From Chitinophagaceae bacterium UBA3961 (GTDB taxonomy: Bacteria; Bacteroidota; Bacteroidia; Chitinophagales; Chitinophagaceae), in the NCBI GenBank assembly GCA_002385265.1, contig DGDD01000128.1:1-14459 (forward strand): DNA of 14,459 bases. Reading direction: 5' to 3'. A program made the translations under genes and the position numbers. Positions 28 to 14,437 of the stretch are shown piece after piece (the first letter of the stretch is position 1; each line of letters begins with the position of its first letter). The notes below the pieces were generated by a model. The model was not told the origin of the DNA. It saw nothing but the letters and a program-made list of their open reading frames with translations, and made no database searches.

Positions 28-62
28 CCTAAGGCCTAACACCTAAAGCCTAACACCTACCT
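28..62 (-). repeat. Heptamer array (CCTAANN on +, TTAGGNN on the sense strand of the protease gene)
   Basis: Five consecutive 7-bp units can be read on the plus strand at 28, 35, 42, 49 and 56; the first four are CCTAA followed by two variable bases and the last is CCTACCT. On the minus strand, the sense strand of the adjacent metalloprotease gene, they read TTAGGNN or TAGGTAGG and start inside the TAG stop codon of that gene (63-61). Further TAG triplets lie 4, 11, 18, 25 and 32 nt beyond the start of the stop codon, so they fall in all three frames. The array may belong to a longer element cut by the window edge. Confidence 0.85.
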
Positions 63-5257: not shown

Positions 5258-5265
5258 TAGCTTGA

Positions 5266-5305
5266 AGTTGTTGAGTGGGTAAGTTATTTAGTTTTTTAGT
5301 TGGGG
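5266..5305 (+). repeat. AGTT octamer array after accC
   Basis: AGTT or AGTG recurs at 5266, 5274, 5282, 5290 and 5298, an exact 8-bp period over five units. The array starts just after the accC stop codon and its last unit runs into the terminator stem. A 17-nt stretch (5280-5296) recurs exactly at 14342-14358 after the rhodanese gene, also just before a terminator. Confidence 0.8.
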
Positions 5306-5329
5306 GGCCGAATTAGGCCCCTTTTTTTT
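5304..5329 (+). terminator. Rho-independent terminator after accC
   Basis: GGGGCC (5304-5309) pairs with GGCCCC (5316-5321) around loop GAATTA, followed by eight T (5322-5329). It is oriented for plus-strand transcription from accBC. Confidence 0.92.
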
Positions 5330-5347
5330 GAAGTTGCGTTGCTGGGT

Positions 5348-5371
5348 TTTAGGCCTTAGGCTTTGGGCTTT
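5348..5371 (+). repeat. TTAGGNN heptamer array downstream of accC
   Basis: About three 7-bp units on the accC sense strand. These 24 nt are identical to 8281-8304 downstream of the GH13 gene. A 17-nt part is also the exact reverse complement of a stretch in the array at 5547-5658. GG or GGG tracts at 5344-5346, 5352, 5359 and 5365-5367 are 4-5 nt apart. Confidence 0.85.
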
Positions 5372-5377
5372 TCATCA

Positions 5378-5404
5378 CCGCAGAGGCCGCCAAGACCGCA
5401 ATGT
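5378..5404 (+). repeat. CCGC nonamer repeat
   Basis: CCGC recurs at 5378, 5387 and 5396, an exact 9-bp period, in units of the type CCGCNNAGA. A further CGCAAAGAG at 5408-5416 looks like a displaced unit. Related text in the opposite orientation lies at 2491-2528. Confidence 0.65.
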
Positions 5405-5436
5405 ATTCGCAAAGAGTTATTTTTTTCTCACCGCAG

Positions 5437-5485
5437 CTGCGAAGCATCCTTCGACTGTGCCTTCGGCCCGCTCAGGAACCTTCGC
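5437..5485 (-). repeat. Dispersed GGTTCCTGAGC repeat, copy 1
   Basis: On the minus strand this reads GCGAAGGTTCCTGAGC, then GGGCCGAAGG and GTCGAAGG. It matches the plus-strand block at 8352-8405, which has GCGAGGTTCCTGAGC, CGAAGG and GTCGAAG in the same order. I recall TCCTGAGCTTGTCGAAGG as a repeat seen in many environmental bacterial genomes; not searched. Confidence 0.65.
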
Positions 5486-5524
5486 AGCGATAACTCAGAG
5501 TTAGCACTCTGTTTAGAAGCGAAG
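5480..5524. other. Possible two-level hairpin in the spacer core
   Basis: CTTCGC (5480-5485) can pair with GCGAAG (5519-5524), and CAGAG (5496-5500) with CTCTG (5507-5511) around a 6-nt loop. There is no T-tract and no sign of a known RNA family; it could be a chance product of repeat sequence. Confidence 0.35.
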
Positions 5525-5546
5525 TCGTGTTCTTCACAACAAACGG

Positions 5547-5658
5547 CCTAAAGCCTAAAGCCTAAGGCCTAAAGCCCAACACCTAAAGCCTAAGGCCCAA
5601 CACCTAAAGCCTAACGCCCCAAAACTTAAAACTAAAAAACTCAAAACTTAAAACTTAA
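5547..5658 (-). repeat. Sixteen-unit heptamer array entering the ispH 3' end
   Basis: 112 bp divide into sixteen 7-bp units. The first ten (5547-5616) are CCTAANN or CCCAACA without interruption; the remaining six drift to ACTTAAA/AACTTAA types. On the minus strand (ispH sense) they read TTAGGNN and TTAAGTT. The ispH stop codon (5650-5648) and its last codons lie inside the array, so the array forms the ispH C-terminus. Confidence 0.9.
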
Positions 5659-6856
5659 TACTCTCCGCCACTCCCCACTTACTCGCCACCTTATAAATCA
5701 CCTGCTCTACAATCGCATCCGGACAAGAAGCGCCGGAGGTAATTAAAATTCTTGTAGGCTTGTTCTCCGGAAGAAAATTTGGAGTAACACTTGAGGTTTT
5801 ATTATGAAAATTGAAATGCTCAATTGAAAAATCATCGCCAATTTTTTCGGGTCCGCTAATGAAATAGGTAGGTAATTTCTCTTCACACAATTCCACCAAA
5901 TGGGTTGTATTCGAAGAATTGTAACCACCCACTACAATGGCTAAATCGGCAGGGGTATCTAGCATAGCGGTTACTGCAGTTTGATTGTCCATAGTTGCAT
6001 AACACAAAGTATCTCTCGTGTCTGCAAAGCGAGTGGCAATGGTTTCAGCGGTTAATCCATAATGAGCAATCATCTGTTGTTTCAAATAATCGGCAATGGC
6101 TTGTGTATCGCTAGCGAGCTGTGTAGTTTGATTCACTACACCAATTTTTTGTAAGTCTTTGCTTGCATCAAATCCTTCCGAGTATCTTCCTTTGAATTCT
6201 TCATAGAAATCTTCAGAAGGTTTTTTGCCGGTGATATAATCGGCTAGTATGATGGCGTCGTTCATGTCATTCAATACTACAGCCGGAGCATTGGCACGTG
6301 CATGCGAAAACGTTGCGCGCGTTTCTTCGTGCTTGGGTTTACCATGAATGATGATGCTGTATCCTTTGTTCGCGATCTGTTCGCTTCTGTTCCAAACTTT
6401 TTCTACAAAAGGACAAGTAGTATTGTATTTTGATGTGGTGATTCCCAAACTGTTTAAATAAGCTTCCATTTCCAAAGTAGTACCGAAAGCAGGAATGATC
6501 ACCACGTCATCAGATGTCAAACTTTCAAAAGGAATCAATTGCTTTCCTAAAGTGTCTTGCAAGAACTGAACACCCATGGCTTGCAAATCGGCATTTACTT
6601 GCGGATTGTGTATCATTTCGCTCAACAGGAAAATACGTTTGCCGGGATTCTCTTCGATGGTTTGAAAAGCTATTTCTATAGCATTCTCCACTCCATAGCA
6701 AAAGCCAAAGTGGCGCGCCAAATAAATTTGTACGGGTCCAAGGTCTAAAAGGGTAGGACTGAAGTCTTTCTTCATTTTATCCGCCTCTTTTCTCGATTTT
6801 TTGATGGAGGCTATCAGAGGACTTCTATAATGAACCGGAACGTTAAATGATTTCAT
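5648..6856 (-). CDS. ispH: 4-hydroxy-3-methylbut-2-enyl diphosphate reductase (plant/cyanobacterial-type)
   Basis: IspH/LytB, a [4Fe-4S] enzyme, makes IPP and DMAPP from HMBPP, the last step of the MEP isoprenoid pathway. The 402-residue protein has cluster cysteines Cys53 (FGFCYGV), Cys148 (NTTCPFV) and Cys285 (TLCYAT), plus His83 (MIHN), His176/Glu178 (KHEETR) and the substrate motif GGYNSSNT near 310-317. GASCPD near the C-terminus has Cys where E. coli has Ala. The N-terminal extension, HGKxKHEET and the insertion with SEGFD at 226-230 resemble plant and cyanobacterial HDRs more than the shorter E. coli form of about 316 residues. An upstream in-frame ATG at 6904 is rejected because a perfect -7 box (6901-6894) lies just downstream of it. 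The final residues and the stop are encoded by a heptamer array. It is convergent with accC and divergent from GH13. Confidence 0.96.
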   Translation of the reverse strand: MKSFNVPVHYRSPLIASIKKSRKEADKMKKDFSPTLLDLGPVQIYLARHFGFCYGVENAIEIAFQTIEENPGKRIFLLSEMIHNPQVNADLQAMGVQFLQDTLGKQLIPFESLTSDDVVIIPAFGTTLEMEAYLNSLGITTSKYNTTCPFVEKVWNRSEQIANKGYSIIIHGKPKHEETRATFSHARANAPAVVLNDMNDAIILADYITGKKPSEDFYEEFKGRYSEGFDASKDLQKIGVVNQTTQLASDTQAIADYLKQQMIAHYGLTAETIATRFADTRDTLCYATMDNQTAVTAMLDTPADLAIVVGGYNSSNTTHLVELCEEKLPTYFISGPEKIGDDFSIEHFNFHNKTSSVTPNFLPENKPTRILITSGASCPDAIVEQVIYKVASKWGVAESIKF

Positions 6857-6893
6857 GTGCTTCGGGTGGCTTTCTTTAACACTATAACAAGCA

Positions 6894-6901
6894 CAAAGGT
6901 A
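6894..6901 (-). promoter_or_regulatory. ispH promoter -7 box
   Basis: On the minus strand TACCTTTG matches TAnnTTTG perfectly. The predicted start near 6888 gives a leader of about 32 nt to the ATG at 6856. No clear -33 TTTG was seen at the right distance. The box decides the start codon of ispH. Confidence 0.6.
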
Positions 6902-6943
6902 CAAAGTTGTGGCCAGCTAATGATTTATTCCGGTGGCAGGGCC

Positions 6944-6974
6944 TTTTAGCCTTGGCCTTCAAGTCTTATCTTTG
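6944..6974 (+). promoter_or_regulatory. Promoter of the GH13 gene, with little or no leader
   Basis: TATCTTTG at 6967-6974 is a perfect TAnnTTTG box. TTTT at 6944-6947, 19 bp upstream, is a weak -33 element. Transcription would start near 6979-6981, at the ATG (6980), so the message would be leaderless or nearly so. Confidence 0.55.
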
Positions 6975-6979
6975 ATGAT

Positions 6980-8248
6980 ATGACACTGAAATCATTCAAC
7001 CCGGTCCCTTGGTCAAAATCCACCACAATTTATGAGGTGAACGTGCGTCAGTACACTGTGGAGGGGACTTTCGAAGCATTTTCCAAGCATTTACCGCGGC
7101 TAAAAGACATGGGCGTTGGCACCCTATGGTTTATGCCCATAACGCCCATCAGCGTTCAAGGTCGATTAGGATCCTTGGGCAGCTACTATGCCTGTTCCGA
7201 TTATACCGCCATCAACCCCGAATTTGGTACCATTGATGATTTTAGGGAGCTCGTGGCTTATGCCCATTCTCTAGGTATGAAAGTGATCATCGATTGGGTG
7301 GCCAACCATACCGGACAAGATCATATTTGGACCCAAACCAATCCCGGCTTTTATAAGAAAAATGCGGAAGGTGCGATGTATGATAGCAATGGATGGAACG
7401 ATGTAATTGATCTGAATTATTACGACGGACTCATGCGAAAAGCTATGATCGATGCCATGCGCTTTTGGGTGCTGGAATGCGATATTGATGGATTTCGTTG
7501 CGATATGGCTCATTTGGTGCCACTCGATTTTTGGAGAAGAGCGCGTATTGAACTATCGGAGGTAAAAGACTTGTTCTGGTTAGGTGAAACAGAAGACATT
7601 CACTACCTCGAAGTATTCGATGCCTGCTATGCTTGGACCTGGATGCACGAAACCGAAAAGTTAGGCAAGGGCCAACTTTCGGTTAGTCAGCTCCGTAATG
7701 TATTGCAAAATTATCAAGTAAGTTTTCCCTCCAATACTACTCAATTGTTTTTCACAAGTAACCACGATGAAAACAGTTGGAACGGAACCGAGTATGAGAA
7801 ATACGGTCCCTTTGCAAAGCCCTTGGCCGTGATCAGCACCCTTTGGAATGGTATTCCTTTGATCTATAGCGGGCAAGAGCAACCCAATCACAAGCGACTC
7901 AAGTTTTTTGATAAAGATAGAATTGAATGGGGCGGTCAACCTGCCTTACATGAATTCTACAAAACCTTGTTTCAGCTTCACCGCGATCATCCGGCGCTCG
8001 CATTTGGAAATGAAGTGCAATGGATTCCTACCAATGCCGATGAATATGTGATGGCTTTTGTACGACGCTTTGAAGGAAGAGAAGTATTGGCATTGATCAA
8101 TCTTTCTCCCAATCATAGTTTTGTGCAATTGAAAGAAGGATACGTGAGTGGGGTATATGCGAATGTGTTCACACACGAAAAAGTGGACGTAATTCCTTTT
8201 CAGAGTTTTGAGTTGAGAGCGTATGAGAGTTTGATATTGGTGAAGTAG
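6980..8248 (+). CDS. GH13 alpha-amylase-family glycoside hydrolase, cytoplasmic
   Basis: A 422-residue GH13 enzyme acting on alpha-glucosidic bonds; the exact substrate cannot be read from the sequence. All four GH13 regions are present: DWVANHTG (105-112), GFRCDMAHL with nucleophile Asp175 and Arg173, LGETED with acid/base Glu203, and FTSNHDEN with Asp263. The TIM barrel starts at about residue 15 (TIYEVNVRQYT), and a short C-terminal beta domain begins near residue 340. There is no signal peptide, so it probably works on cytoplasmic maltodextrin or glycogen-type chains; a trehalose or transglycosylating role is possible. No sugar transporter or other carbohydrate gene is adjacent. No other start fits: ATG at 6975 is out of frame and soon stops. 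The TAG stop overlaps the first unit of a TTAGGNN array. Confidence 0.92.
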   Translation: MTLKSFNPVPWSKSTTIYEVNVRQYTVEGTFEAFSKHLPRLKDMGVGTLWFMPITPISVQGRLGSLGSYYACSDYTAINPEFGTIDDFRELVAYAHSLGMKVIIDWVANHTGQDHIWTQTNPGFYKKNAEGAMYDSNGWNDVIDLNYYDGLMRKAMIDAMRFWVLECDIDGFRCDMAHLVPLDFWRRARIELSEVKDLFWLGETEDIHYLEVFDACYAWTWMHETEKLGKGQLSVSQLRNVLQNYQVSFPSNTTQLFFTSNHDENSWNGTEYEKYGPFAKPLAVISTLWNGIPLIYSGQEQPNHKRLKFFDKDRIEWGGQPALHEFYKTLFQLHRDHPALAFGNEVQWIPTNADEYVMAFVRRFEGREVLALINLSPNHSFVQLKEGYVSGVYANVFTHEKVDVIPFQSFELRAYESLILVK

Positions 8249-8309
8249 GTTGTTAGGCGTTAGGTGTTAGGTTGTTAGGCTTTAGGCCTTAGGCTTTGGG
8301 CTTTAGTCC
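8245..8309 (+). repeat. TTAGGNN heptamer array at the GH13 stop codon
   Basis: About nine units of 7 bp, with two of 8 bp. The first overlaps the TAG stop at 8246-8248. TAG triplets at 8246, 8254 and 8268 lie in the three different frames. 8281-8304 is identical to 5348-5371 (24 nt), and 8267-8285 is identical to 14401-14419 (19 nt). Confidence 0.9.
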
Positions 8310-8351
8310 ATTCATTTTAAAGCGCGAATATTCACTTTCATATAAAAAAAC

Positions 8352-8405
8352 TTTGCGAGGTTCCTGAGCTTGTCGAAGGGCCGGCCAACCGAAGGTTGAG
8401 TCGAA
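8352..8405 (+). repeat. Dispersed GGTTCCTGAGC repeat, copy 2
   Basis: TTTGCGAGGTTCCTGAGC (8352-8369) is followed by CGAAGG (8374-8379), a GGCCGGCC palindrome and a second CGAAGG and GTCGAAG. It shares text and order with the minus-strand copy at 5437-5485. Confidence 0.65.
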
Positions 8406-8472
8406 GACCTTATTGACGGACGCTGCGCTGCCGCGGTGAAGGACACACTAAAAATTTCGATCAGTTTACTCT

Positions 8473-8515
8473 ACCGCAAAGAAAAGAAGAACGCAAAGGT
8501 ACGCAACGCATGACG
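8473..8515 (+). repeat. Degenerate CCGCAAAG block
   Basis: CGC recurs at 8475, 8492, 8502, 8507 and 8513 in CGCAAAG/CGCAACG text resembling the nonamers at 5378-5404, but the period is broken. Confidence 0.4.
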
Positions 8516-8565
8516 CTAAGTTGCTGCTGTGCTGACACAATTAAGAAAAAGAAACTCCACGAATA

Positions 8566-8620
8566 CTTTGCAAGGTTTCTCAGCTTATCCTTAGCCTGTC
8601 GCGAGCGAACAGCAGGTTCC
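8566..8620 (+). repeat. Dispersed GGTTCC repeat, degenerate copy 3
   Basis: CTTTGCAAGGTTTCTCAGC at 8566-8584 resembles the start of copy 2 (TTTGCGAGGTTCCTGAGC), and GCAGGTTCC follows near the end of the block. It is more diverged than the other two copies. Confidence 0.5.
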
Positions 8621-8664
8621 GCCGGAAGACGCTGCAGTTAAAAGACTTTTCAGTAATCAAAAAA

Positions 8665-8735
8665 CCTAAAACCTAAAGCCCAATAACCTAAGGCCTAATA
8701 ACCTAAGGCCCAAAGCCTAACAACCTAAAGCCTAG
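8665..8735 (-). repeat. CCTAANN heptamer/octamer array downstream of htrA
   Basis: Ten units on the plus strand start at 8665, 8672, 8679, 8687, 8694, 8702, 8709, 8716, 8724 and 8731; most are 7 bp and three are 8 bp. On the minus strand (htrA sense) they read TTAGGNN. The array lies beyond the htrA terminator and is inverted relative to the GH13-side array at 8245-8309. Confidence 0.9.
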
Positions 8736-8740
8736 TAAAA

Positions 8741-8766
8741 TAAAAAAGAGGCGCAAGCGCGCCTCT
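8741..8766 (-). terminator. Rho-independent terminator after htrA
   Basis: AGAGGCGC (8747-8754) and GCGCCTCT (8759-8766) form a perfect 8-bp stem with a 4-nt loop. On the minus strand it is followed by a T-rich tract (8747-8741). It ends where the AT heptamer array begins. Confidence 0.93.
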
Positions 8767-8800
8767 AATTATTAATTATTAATTGTTAATTATTAATTAC
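8766..8800 (-). repeat. AT-rich heptamer array at the htrA stop codon
   Basis: Five 7-bp units on the plus strand: TAATTAT twice, TAATTGT, TAATTAT and TAATTAC. The htrA stop (8795-8793) and its last Asn codon lie inside the array. It is an inverted near-copy of 2351-2385 (33 of 35 positions). TAA triplets on the sense strand fall in all three frames within 17 nt. Confidence 0.88.
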
Positions 8801-14019: not shown

Positions 14020-14328
14020 ATGCAAACTATTTCTGCTGCTGATGTAAAAGCCCGATTGGATGCGGGTGAAGCATTGAATCTCGTAGATGTAAGAGAACCT
14101 TTCGAAAATGCTGATTTTAATATTGGTGGAGTATTGGTTCCCCTCGGAAAAATTCAAACCATGCAAACCGATGATATTGATGAACTGAAAGATCAAGAAG
14201 TAATTGTGTATTGCAGAAGCGGCAACCGCAGTGGCCAAGCTTGTCTTATCCTCGAAACCATGGGCTTTAGCAATGTAAAGAATTTGGTTGGCGGAATGAT
14301 GGGTTGGGAAGCAACTTACGGAAGATAA
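14020..14328 (+). CDS. Single-domain rhodanese-like protein
   Basis: A 102-residue protein consisting of one rhodanese domain, GlpE/PspE-like. Cys65 sits in the active-site loop CRSGNR (65-70), the persulfide-forming residue of active sulfurtransferases. DVREPFE (23-29) and NLVGGMMGW are the other conserved segments. There is no signal peptide, so it is cytoplasmic. It is probably cotranscribed with ddl and the PASTA gene, but a functional link is not evident. The stop codon overlaps the first unit of an AGTT octamer array that runs into the terminator. Confidence 0.94.
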   Translation: MQTISAADVKARLDAGEALNLVDVREPFENADFNIGGVLVPLGKIQTMQTDDIDELKDQEVIVYCRSGNRSGQACLILETMGFSNVKNLVGGMMGWEATYGR

Positions 14329-14361
14329 GTTCTCGAGTTATTAAGTTATTTAGTTTTTAGT
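14328..14361 (+). repeat. AGTT octamer array at the rhodanese stop codon
   Basis: AGTT recurs at 14328, 14336, 14344 and 14352, an exact 8-bp period, with AGTG at 14359 one base short. The first A is the last base of the TAA stop. 14342-14358 is identical to 5280-5296 after accC. Confidence 0.8.
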
Positions 14362-14386: not shown

Positions 14387-14437
14387 TTAGGTAGTAGGCT
14401 TTAGGTTGTTAGGCTTTAGTTGGTCTCTGTGAGAGGA
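14387..14437 (+). repeat. TTAGGNN array and decayed hairpin copy at the right edge
   Basis: Units start at 14387, 14395, 14401, 14409 and 14416 (6 to 8 bp) in TTAGG orientation on the rhodanese sense strand. They are followed by GGTCTCTGTGAGAGG (14422-14436), which resembles the terminator text GGGCTCCGTGAGGGG just upstream. A further composite spacer probably continues beyond the window. Confidence 0.7.

Follow-up and report, generated by a model that had tools for sequence, protein, structure and literature searches.

TTRGGYN heptad arrays in a Chitinophagaceae genome are oriented by the edges of intergenic spacers and often abut stop codons that match their unit

What sets the strand of a short tandem repeat that lies between genes? 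The question is raised by contig DGDD01000128.1 of the Chitinophagaceae bacterium UBA3961 assembly GCA_002385265.1, a stretch of 14,459 nucleotides that is referred to here, in its entirety, as the window (contig 137 in an assembly of 304 contigs and 4.12 Mb, 95.7% complete), and in which six arrays of a TTAGG-containing heptad occupy the spacers. The original prediction, made from the window alone, placed these six arrays, and an independent heptad scan and Tandem Repeats Finder concur with their positions. Within the window, each array does carry TTAGG on the sense strand of the gene whose end it adjoins, both complete convergent junctions carry a pair of arrays facing inward, and the 3′ ends of the efp, accB, ferredoxin, ddl and reductase genes are without arrays, all as had been described. 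From this pattern a strand rule tied to gene direction was proposed. The analysis of the wider genome indicates that the observation was real and its interpretation half right: the spacer edges, and not gene direction, determine the strand of an array, with the G-rich strand running from the nearest open reading frame (ORF) inward.

The unit is TTRGGYN, repeated with a period of 7 and sometimes 8 bases. The three-unit pattern TTAGGNNTTAGGNNTTAGG has 162 matches in the genome, whereas the mirrored pattern has 0, and 74 arrays reach the scan cut-off of 13 in a sample of 774,592 bases (19% of the genome), compared with 0 in the reversed and complemented controls; chance origin of the arrays is therefore excluded. 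An earlier array scorer with a weak mismatch penalty, under which controls scored as high as the data, was replaced by this stricter one. Only for this genome does the mirrored pattern serve as a clean control, since in genomes G420 and G189 it is a heptad family in its own right (94 and 87 four-unit matches, respectively). The sample comprises 61 stretches with 658 called genes, namely 40 stretches from contigs with an exact match, 20 selected blind of arrays (184,541 bases, containing 5 arrays) and the window; because 40 of the 61 were picked via exact matches, array densities are inflated, and the comparisons of orientation and spacer type are internal to the sample. Genes were called using a purpose-written script rather than a standard caller, and the 10 arrays located at stretch ends are left out of the orientation counts.

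All 74 arrays are assignable to spacers; apart from those at stretch ends, they lie in convergent (32), tandem (28) and divergent (4) spacers, and just one of the 74 begins more than 10 bp within a called gene. For 55 of these 64 arrays, the nearest ORF lies 5′ to the G-rich strand irrespective of the direction of that ORF (p = 4e-9); the median distance to the 5′ ORF is 50.5 bp, compared with 269 bp to the 3′ ORF. TTAGG thus reads away from the nearest ORF in 28/32 convergent, 24/28 tandem and 3/4 divergent cases, which bears out the view that orientation is non-random. Gene direction accounts for only part of this pattern: in convergent spacers, 28 of the 32 arrays are nearest to the gene to which they are sense, but the 28 arrays of tandem spacers divide into 16 that are sense and 12 that are antisense (p = 0.57), and 9 of these 12 antisense arrays are closer to the downstream gene and are directed back into the spacer. 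The predicted gene-sense orientation therefore stands for convergent spacers and fails for tandem ones, and what sets the strand is the position of the nearest ORF rather than a transcription or translation end. The ORF on the 5′ side of the array presents its 3′ end in 48/64 cases; the other 16/64 arrays are located at ORF 5′ ends.

A preference for convergent junctions, which the original prediction had also raised, is clear when spacers of at least 100 bp are compared: arrays are present in 23/47 convergent, 21/151 tandem and 4/65 divergent spacers. The difference between convergent and tandem spacers is significant (p = 3e-6), whereas that between tandem and divergent spacers is not (p = 0.16), so the unequal frequency in divergent spacers that had been anticipated is evident against convergent ones. 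Taken together with this convergent excess and divergent scarcity, the edge rule makes the apparent rule of “sense at gene ends” a by-product. The inward pair present at both junctions of the window is not typical of convergent spacers elsewhere; such pairs are found in 4/25 array-bearing convergent spacers in total, in 4/22 tandem spacers and in 8/51 array-bearing spacers overall.

The anatomy of the unit was analyzed using 156 internal units located between exact units. The core is nearly invariant, with T at position 1 in 151 units, T at position 2 in 156, G at position 4 in 156 and G at position 5 in 155, corresponding to 6 changes at 624 sites. Position 3 is occupied by A (135), G (20) or C (1), and position 6 by C (107), T (47) or A (2), while position 7 is free. 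These changes are unequal on the paired strands: A3 is replaced by G in 20/156 units, whereas T1 and T2 are replaced by C in 1/312 (p = 2e-9), and T is present at position 6 in 47/156 units, whereas G4 and G5 are replaced by A in 0/312 (p = 2e-25). Random decay cannot be the source of such a strand-asymmetric core, although a factor that recognizes the core could be, as could templated synthesis prone to wobble-type errors. Identical linkers at adjacent positions are too rare (9/129 compared with 14.9 in within-array shuffles; 20/233 compared with 13.3% in a larger set), and identity at a lag of two units is slightly raised (14/63 compared with 9.9, p = 0.07; 33/161 in the larger set, p = 0.016). 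The rarity of identical neighbors argues against fresh slippage, in agreement with the prediction that random slippage is not the cause. Between loci, a common run of at least 3 linkers is found in 66/1218 array pairs, compared with approximately 50.5 in shuffles, and this scarcity of common linker order argues against copies of one master sequence or of a mobile element.

The stop codons at the array junctions match the unit. Many arrays at gene 3′ ends extend into the stop, the final one or more bases of which fit the unit. Where a sense array lies within 8 bp of a stop, the stop is TAG in 18/21 cases, as opposed to 133/624 genes overall; under a second definition of an abutting stop, which includes two genes with a lone unit only, TAG accounts for 18/23 as opposed to 109/588. 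In 11 of those 18 TAG cases, the first full unit begins 3 or 10 bases past the stop, that is, in the 7-base register. TAG is likewise frequent at abutting stops in G010 (14/21; background 51/149) and in G237, G134 and G055 combined (11/14; background 26/135). The arrays of G420 are built of a GGATT unit, which is unable to supply TAG, and the 19 abutting stops of that genome consist of 13 TGA, 6 TAA and 0 TAG, compared with a background of 48 TGA, 92 TAA and 65 TAG; inspected by eye, many of them read TGATT, a partial unit. TAG therefore accompanies TTAGG and TGA accompanies GGATT. Among 20 genes of relatives orthologous to five of the abutted genes, in genomes with 0 to 7 three-unit matches, 14 end in TAA, 5 in TAG and 1 in TGA, which favors overwriting of the stop; TAA is present at the same codon in 6/6 relatives for a DnaJ-like gene and in 3/4 relatives for a GDP-mannose-dehydratase-like gene. 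The stops of amylase-like genes, read at 68 of 80 related loci, are 43 TAA, 13 TGA and 12 TAG. These comparisons partly establish that a TAA stop was probably overwritten by the array in at least some genes, while elsewhere TAG may predate the array. The presence of stops in every frame was considered as a general reason for tolerance of the arrays and was rejected, as GGATT units carry no stop.

Heptads obeying the edge rule are not confined to this genome. Of 395 genomes sampled across the phylum (the present one included), 32 contain a match of four exact units, with 81 matches here and 26 in the next highest, and a three-unit match is found in 12 of 59 close genomes (again including this one), chiefly G010 (149), G046 (37) and G055 (16); in the same-genus genome G001, which is 78% complete, the three-unit match gave 0 hits. 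The stretches analyzed from G010 (12 of 13, the first excepted), G420, G237, G134, G046 and G055 were chosen for their arrays. The rule is kept in 30/35 arrays of G010, a member of the same family with TTAGGAR units (36 arrays in the scan, with 4 control matches), in 41/44 arrays of G420, a member of the same class (46 arrays, 44 of which were assigned to spacers), in 6/6 of G134 and in 4/4 of G055. When heptads were sought without a preset unit in the 80 related loci, period 7 was found 36 times in intergenic and 0 times in coding sequence, period 8 was found 24 times and periods 9–12 were found 3 times between genes; 32 of the 36 heptads are flanked by two genes, and for 26 the contrast of G and C allows an orientation to be assigned, which fits the rule in 20. 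No TTAGG chain is present in the 91 loci L092–L182, and in the same-genus genome the spacer beside the amylase-like gene is array-free and 91 bp long, compared with 544 bp here; judged by this comparison of orthologous spacers, which had been suggested at the outset, the arrays are a lineage-specific gain at the amylase-like gene end, where the relatives examined have none. The nearest named relatives of the amylase-like protein are Chitinophagaceae, the closest being from the metagenome-assembled genome “ES-bin-34” (66% identity). By eye, other heptads are visible at this gene end in other genera, namely AACGCNN heptads at two Niastella loci and TCGTGAN-like heptads at another Chitinophagaceae locus (L108, L111 and L106).

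The arrays are probably lineage-specific heptameric intergenic repeats that were built in place against ORF edges and have a recognized core. Their construction unit by unit around such a core is quite possible, though it is put forward tentatively. Under this scheme, units would be added in place with T1, T2, G4 and G5 held constant, either purine accepted at position 3, either pyrimidine at position 6 and any base at position 7; arrays would grow or renew against the ORF boundary and halt where loss of coding sequence is not tolerable; and convergent spacers would be the fullest because they contain no promoter to damage. Because the core is invariant while the linkers are shuffled, the core seems to be read, either by a DNA- or RNA-binding factor or by the unit-making process itself.

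Several observations weigh against this explanation or the generality of the rule. The rule is weakly kept in G237 (13/19) and is broken in G046 (7/13), where the TTAGGAG arrays located in tandem spacers are antisense in 11/11 cases (L275–L283), and 6 of the 26 orientable heptads found without a preset unit contradict it. The avoidance of identical neighbors is not significant in G010 or G420. For six genes of G001 (the five abutted genes and the amylase-like gene), the stops are 3 TAA and 3 TAG, so that half of the abutted stops could have begun as TAG. The convergent enrichment could be mere tolerance, and the invariance of the core may be due to recent origin alone, the arrays being too young for decay.

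In the window, the arrays and the elements that accompany them are as follows; gene names are putative, being those of the earlier reader or read from the sequence.

28–59, minus strand: TTRGGYN array (heptad scan score 23.6), adjoining the TAG stop of the minus-strand gene at 61–2193
2351–2386, no strand assigned: TAATTAT heptads, a family other than TTRGGYN, in a divergent spacer
5302–5323: terminator-like hairpin, between the end of accC and the array at 5345–5371
5345–5371, plus strand: short TTRGGYN array (heptad scan score 15.0), 3′ of accC and past the terminator-like hairpin
5542–5632, minus strand: long TTRGGYN array (score 44.6, also found by Tandem Repeats Finder), with the 3′ end of an ispH-like gene nearby
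5621–5662, minus strand: AAAACTT/AGTTTTN heptads, between the array at 5542–5632 and the stop at 5648, entering the end of the ispH-like gene
8246–8306, plus strand: TTRGGYN array, starting within the TAG stop (8246–8248) of the amylase-like gene
8661–8734, minus strand: TTRGGYN array (heptad scan score 38.7)
8747–8766, found on both strands: terminator-like hairpin, between the array at 8661–8734 and the end of a degP-like gene
8766–8799, no strand assigned: TAATTAT heptads, second family, entering the TAA stop (8793–8795) of the degP-like gene
14387–14419, plus strand: TTRGGYN array (heptad scan), 3′ of a rhodanese-like gene

The TAG stop of the gene at 61–2193 is followed directly by GTAGG and TTAGG units. 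The arrays at 5345–5371 and 5542–5632 form one inward pair, and those at 8246–8306 and 8661–8734 form the other; a terminator-like hairpin ahead of the array at 14387–14419 was seen by eye only. No TTRGGYN array beyond the six is found in the window even at the lowest scan cut-off of 8, and a search against Rfam gave 0 matches in the window. The TAATTAT family is near-palindromic, and a third heptad-like family, AGTTATT/AGTTTTN, lies between a stop codon and a terminator-like hairpin or an array at 5265–5296, 5621–5662 and 14327–14358. Both contig ends (1–60 and 14387–14459) coincide with arrays or other dispersed repeats, and inspection by eye shows a resemblance between the last bases of the window and a stretch in L083; breakage of the assembly at such repeats is a possible reason for both ends.

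Beyond the window, the spacers of this genome contain other recurrent modules, namely GACCACAGATT, GCAGCG, CCTCGT, CCCCCTGTTC, and CGGCTGTTTCAT plus AATTATT, the order and polarity of which are kept: TTAGG precedes GACCAC 13 times and follows it 2 times, GCAGCG precedes CCTCGT 18 times and follows it 5 times, and CCTCGT precedes CGGCTG 7 times and follows it 0 times. Relative to other modules of like polarity, TTAGG comes first in 26 cases and second in 3, and the TTRGGYN array thus mostly forms the outer end of a polar mosaic of intergenic repeats. Sequence common to at least 2 spacers is present in 109 of the 233 spacers of at least 120 bp, with a median match of 51 bp at 86% identity and a longest match of 869 bp at 84%. 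Stretches L031–L090 display this mosaic of dispersed modules, including CTTCGACTGTGCC-type elements, which resemble extragenic repeats of wide occurrence. For replacement of terminators by arrays, a candidate reading at most, the counts are terminators at 2/12 abutted convergent gene ends and at 24/77 of those without arrays. RNA folding of the two paired spacers of the window is better than that of shuffles (z = −4.9 and −5.0), as is expected of any two opposed arrays. Within an inward pair, the two arms resemble each other no more closely than shuffled partners do, either in this genome (10 pairs, p = 0.73) or in G010 (7 pairs, p = 0.37), and a hairpin function evidenced by covariation was therefore rejected for both. 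In G420, 21 inward pairs have linker-matched arms (0/20,000 permutations were as good), and these site-matched arms are a candidate case of a covarying hairpin or of arm correction. Stretches L235–L254 of that genome contain compact GGATT heptad palindromes, many of them flush with both flanking ORFs.

Other explanations fit parts of this evidence. If sense-strand TTAGG marked or made the 3′ end of a transcript or translated region, the orientation in convergent spacers and the extension of arrays to the stop codon would follow, but this is highly improbable given the division of tandem-spacer arrays into sense and antisense, most of the latter being nearer the next gene and directed into the spacer, and given that the arrays at 5345–5371 and 8661–8734, together with a third judged by eye, lie past a terminator-like hairpin. 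Ordinary polymerase slippage on a simple 7-base repeat, retained where harmless, would accord with the pure arrays of other Bacteroidota, for example (GGATTAC)n among the matches listed for G189 and (TTAGGGT)n in G134, and with 7 being the commonest intergenic tandem period in the related loci; it is distinctly unlikely here, as neighboring units are less alike than shuffled ones, likeness within an array is 15% compared with 18% in the pool, and slippage explains neither the strand-asymmetric constraint on the core nor the side rule. A mobile palindromic element similar to a miniature inverted-repeat transposable element (MITE) or a REPIN (a hairpin-forming pair of repetitive extragenic palindromes, REPs), with the inward arrays as its terminal inverted repeats, would account for the inward pairs, the linker-matched arms of G420 and the shared, ordered and polar spacer modules, and 3 Y1 transposases are encoded in this genome. 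The arms of the pairs are nevertheless unmatched here, most array-bearing spacers have a single array, hardly any linker order is common to different loci, and Y1 transposases are present in 44 of the 59 close genomes (this one included) without a tie to arrays, so that a Y1 link was rejected and a mobile element is unlikely.

Two further possibilities are insulation of neighboring genes and repeat addition at chromosome breaks. A C-rich strand can serve as a loading site for Rho, and the arrays might insulate neighboring genes by this means or, when paired, as a 3′ hairpin. Under the side rule, a transcript on its way into an ORF reads CCUAA and one on its way out reads UUAGG, and the folding of both window spacers is compatible with such a device; on the other hand, pairing is expected of any opposed arrays, the arms here lack covariation, and the arrays at ORF 5′ ends could act on the transcript of their own gene, which together make a boundary function an improbable explanation. 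Alternatively, repeats might be added by a telomerase-like templated process to 3′ ends at chromosome breaks, followed by joining: a free 3′ end in or near a spacer would prime in register, for which the T or TA of a stop codon would suffice, TT(A/G)GG(C/T) units with one untemplated base would be added, and the ends would be rejoined, leaving the arrays as scars. This predicts the inward rule, junctions in register at the T or TA of the stop, a fixed core with wobble-type changes at positions 3 and 6, and little common linker order, and a bacterial reverse transcriptase that makes tandem repeats, DRT10, is described in a preprint (PMC12632851). It is very unlikely all the same. The reverse transcriptase domain RVT_1 has 0 matches in this genome at 95.7% completeness, which weighs against it; G010 has 4, but array-poor relatives also have some, and a reverse transcriptase link was rejected as 14 of the other 58 close genomes carry RVT_1 without a tie to arrays. 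Furthermore, the wobble logic fails at position 6 of the G420 units (G or T), and selection could yield the same junctions. If true, repeat addition would be a bacterial counterpart of telomere healing in which the unit of each lineage reports its own template, and it would account jointly for the inward rule, the unit-matched stops, the asymmetric core and the unshared linker order.

Whichever process built the arrays, a stop codon that follows the unit and a core constrained on one strand are new handles for testing the origin of heptads, and the takeover of stop codons by repeats matters for the annotation of gene ends and for assemblies that break there.

Seven-base tandem intergenic repeats are known in heterocystous cyanobacteria as short tandemly repeated repetitive (STRR) sequences. 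The TTAGG heptad of Bacteroidota is not named in the titles and abstract openings of the literature among the matches listed, in a search mainly of the openly accessible literature. An equivalent in kind has nevertheless been described, although the original prediction knew of none, as the same positional rule is in print for other heptads, and the cyanobacterial comparison that it drew was apt: according to Rehm et al. (2015; PMC4692102), the GGGNATC/GGGGAYT heptads found in Xanthomonas and Nostoc are “almost exclusively” closer to the 5′ ORF whatever its orientation, have a sense orientation next to stops and an antisense one upstream of starts, form inverted pairs in convergent spacers and are few in divergent ones. 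The TTRGGYN arrays share with them the 7-base period, heterogeneous units, intergenic location, a G-rich strand, proximity to the 5′ ORF, overlap with stop codons, inverted convergent pairs and scarcity between divergent ORFs (4/65 here), and almost certainly belong to the same class under the same positional rule. They differ in having two Gs in most units and three in the TTGGG form (20/156), rather than three or four, so that a strong quadruplex is probably not to be expected of the TTRGG core, and in being enriched per spacer in convergent rather than aligned spacers; the consulted sections of PMC4692102 mention neither a unit-matched stop nor a strand-asymmetric core nor a polar mosaic.

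The TAACTGA direct repeats of Beggiatoaceae, Cyanobacteria and five Bacteroidetes (MacGregor, 2015; PMC4679880) are likewise intergenic heptamers distributed patchily by lineage, including within Bacteroidetes, but those of the main genome are mostly found just upstream of starts in forward orientation, whereas TTRGGYN arrays lie at ORF edges with a preference for 3′ ends (48/64); the arrays of G046 look more like the TAACTGA pattern. REP, REPIN and bacterial interspersed mosaic element (BIME) sequences (PMC3116915, PMC2817692) are also extragenic and mosaic, with inward inverted arms at some spacers, from which the TTRGGYN arrays differ in their unmatched arms and in that no link to a transposase was found. 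DRT10 makes short tandem-repeat DNA from an RNA template, but this DNA is protein-primed and chromosomal copies are not reported in the consulted passages of the preprint (PMC12632851). The heptad class and the edge rule are thus already known, and the unit-matched stop codons are new. The edge rule of the Xanthomonas and Nostoc heptads recurs with other units in several Bacteroidota, and its occurrence with unrelated units across phyla suggests that a single general process, and not some feature of a particular sequence, may underlie it.

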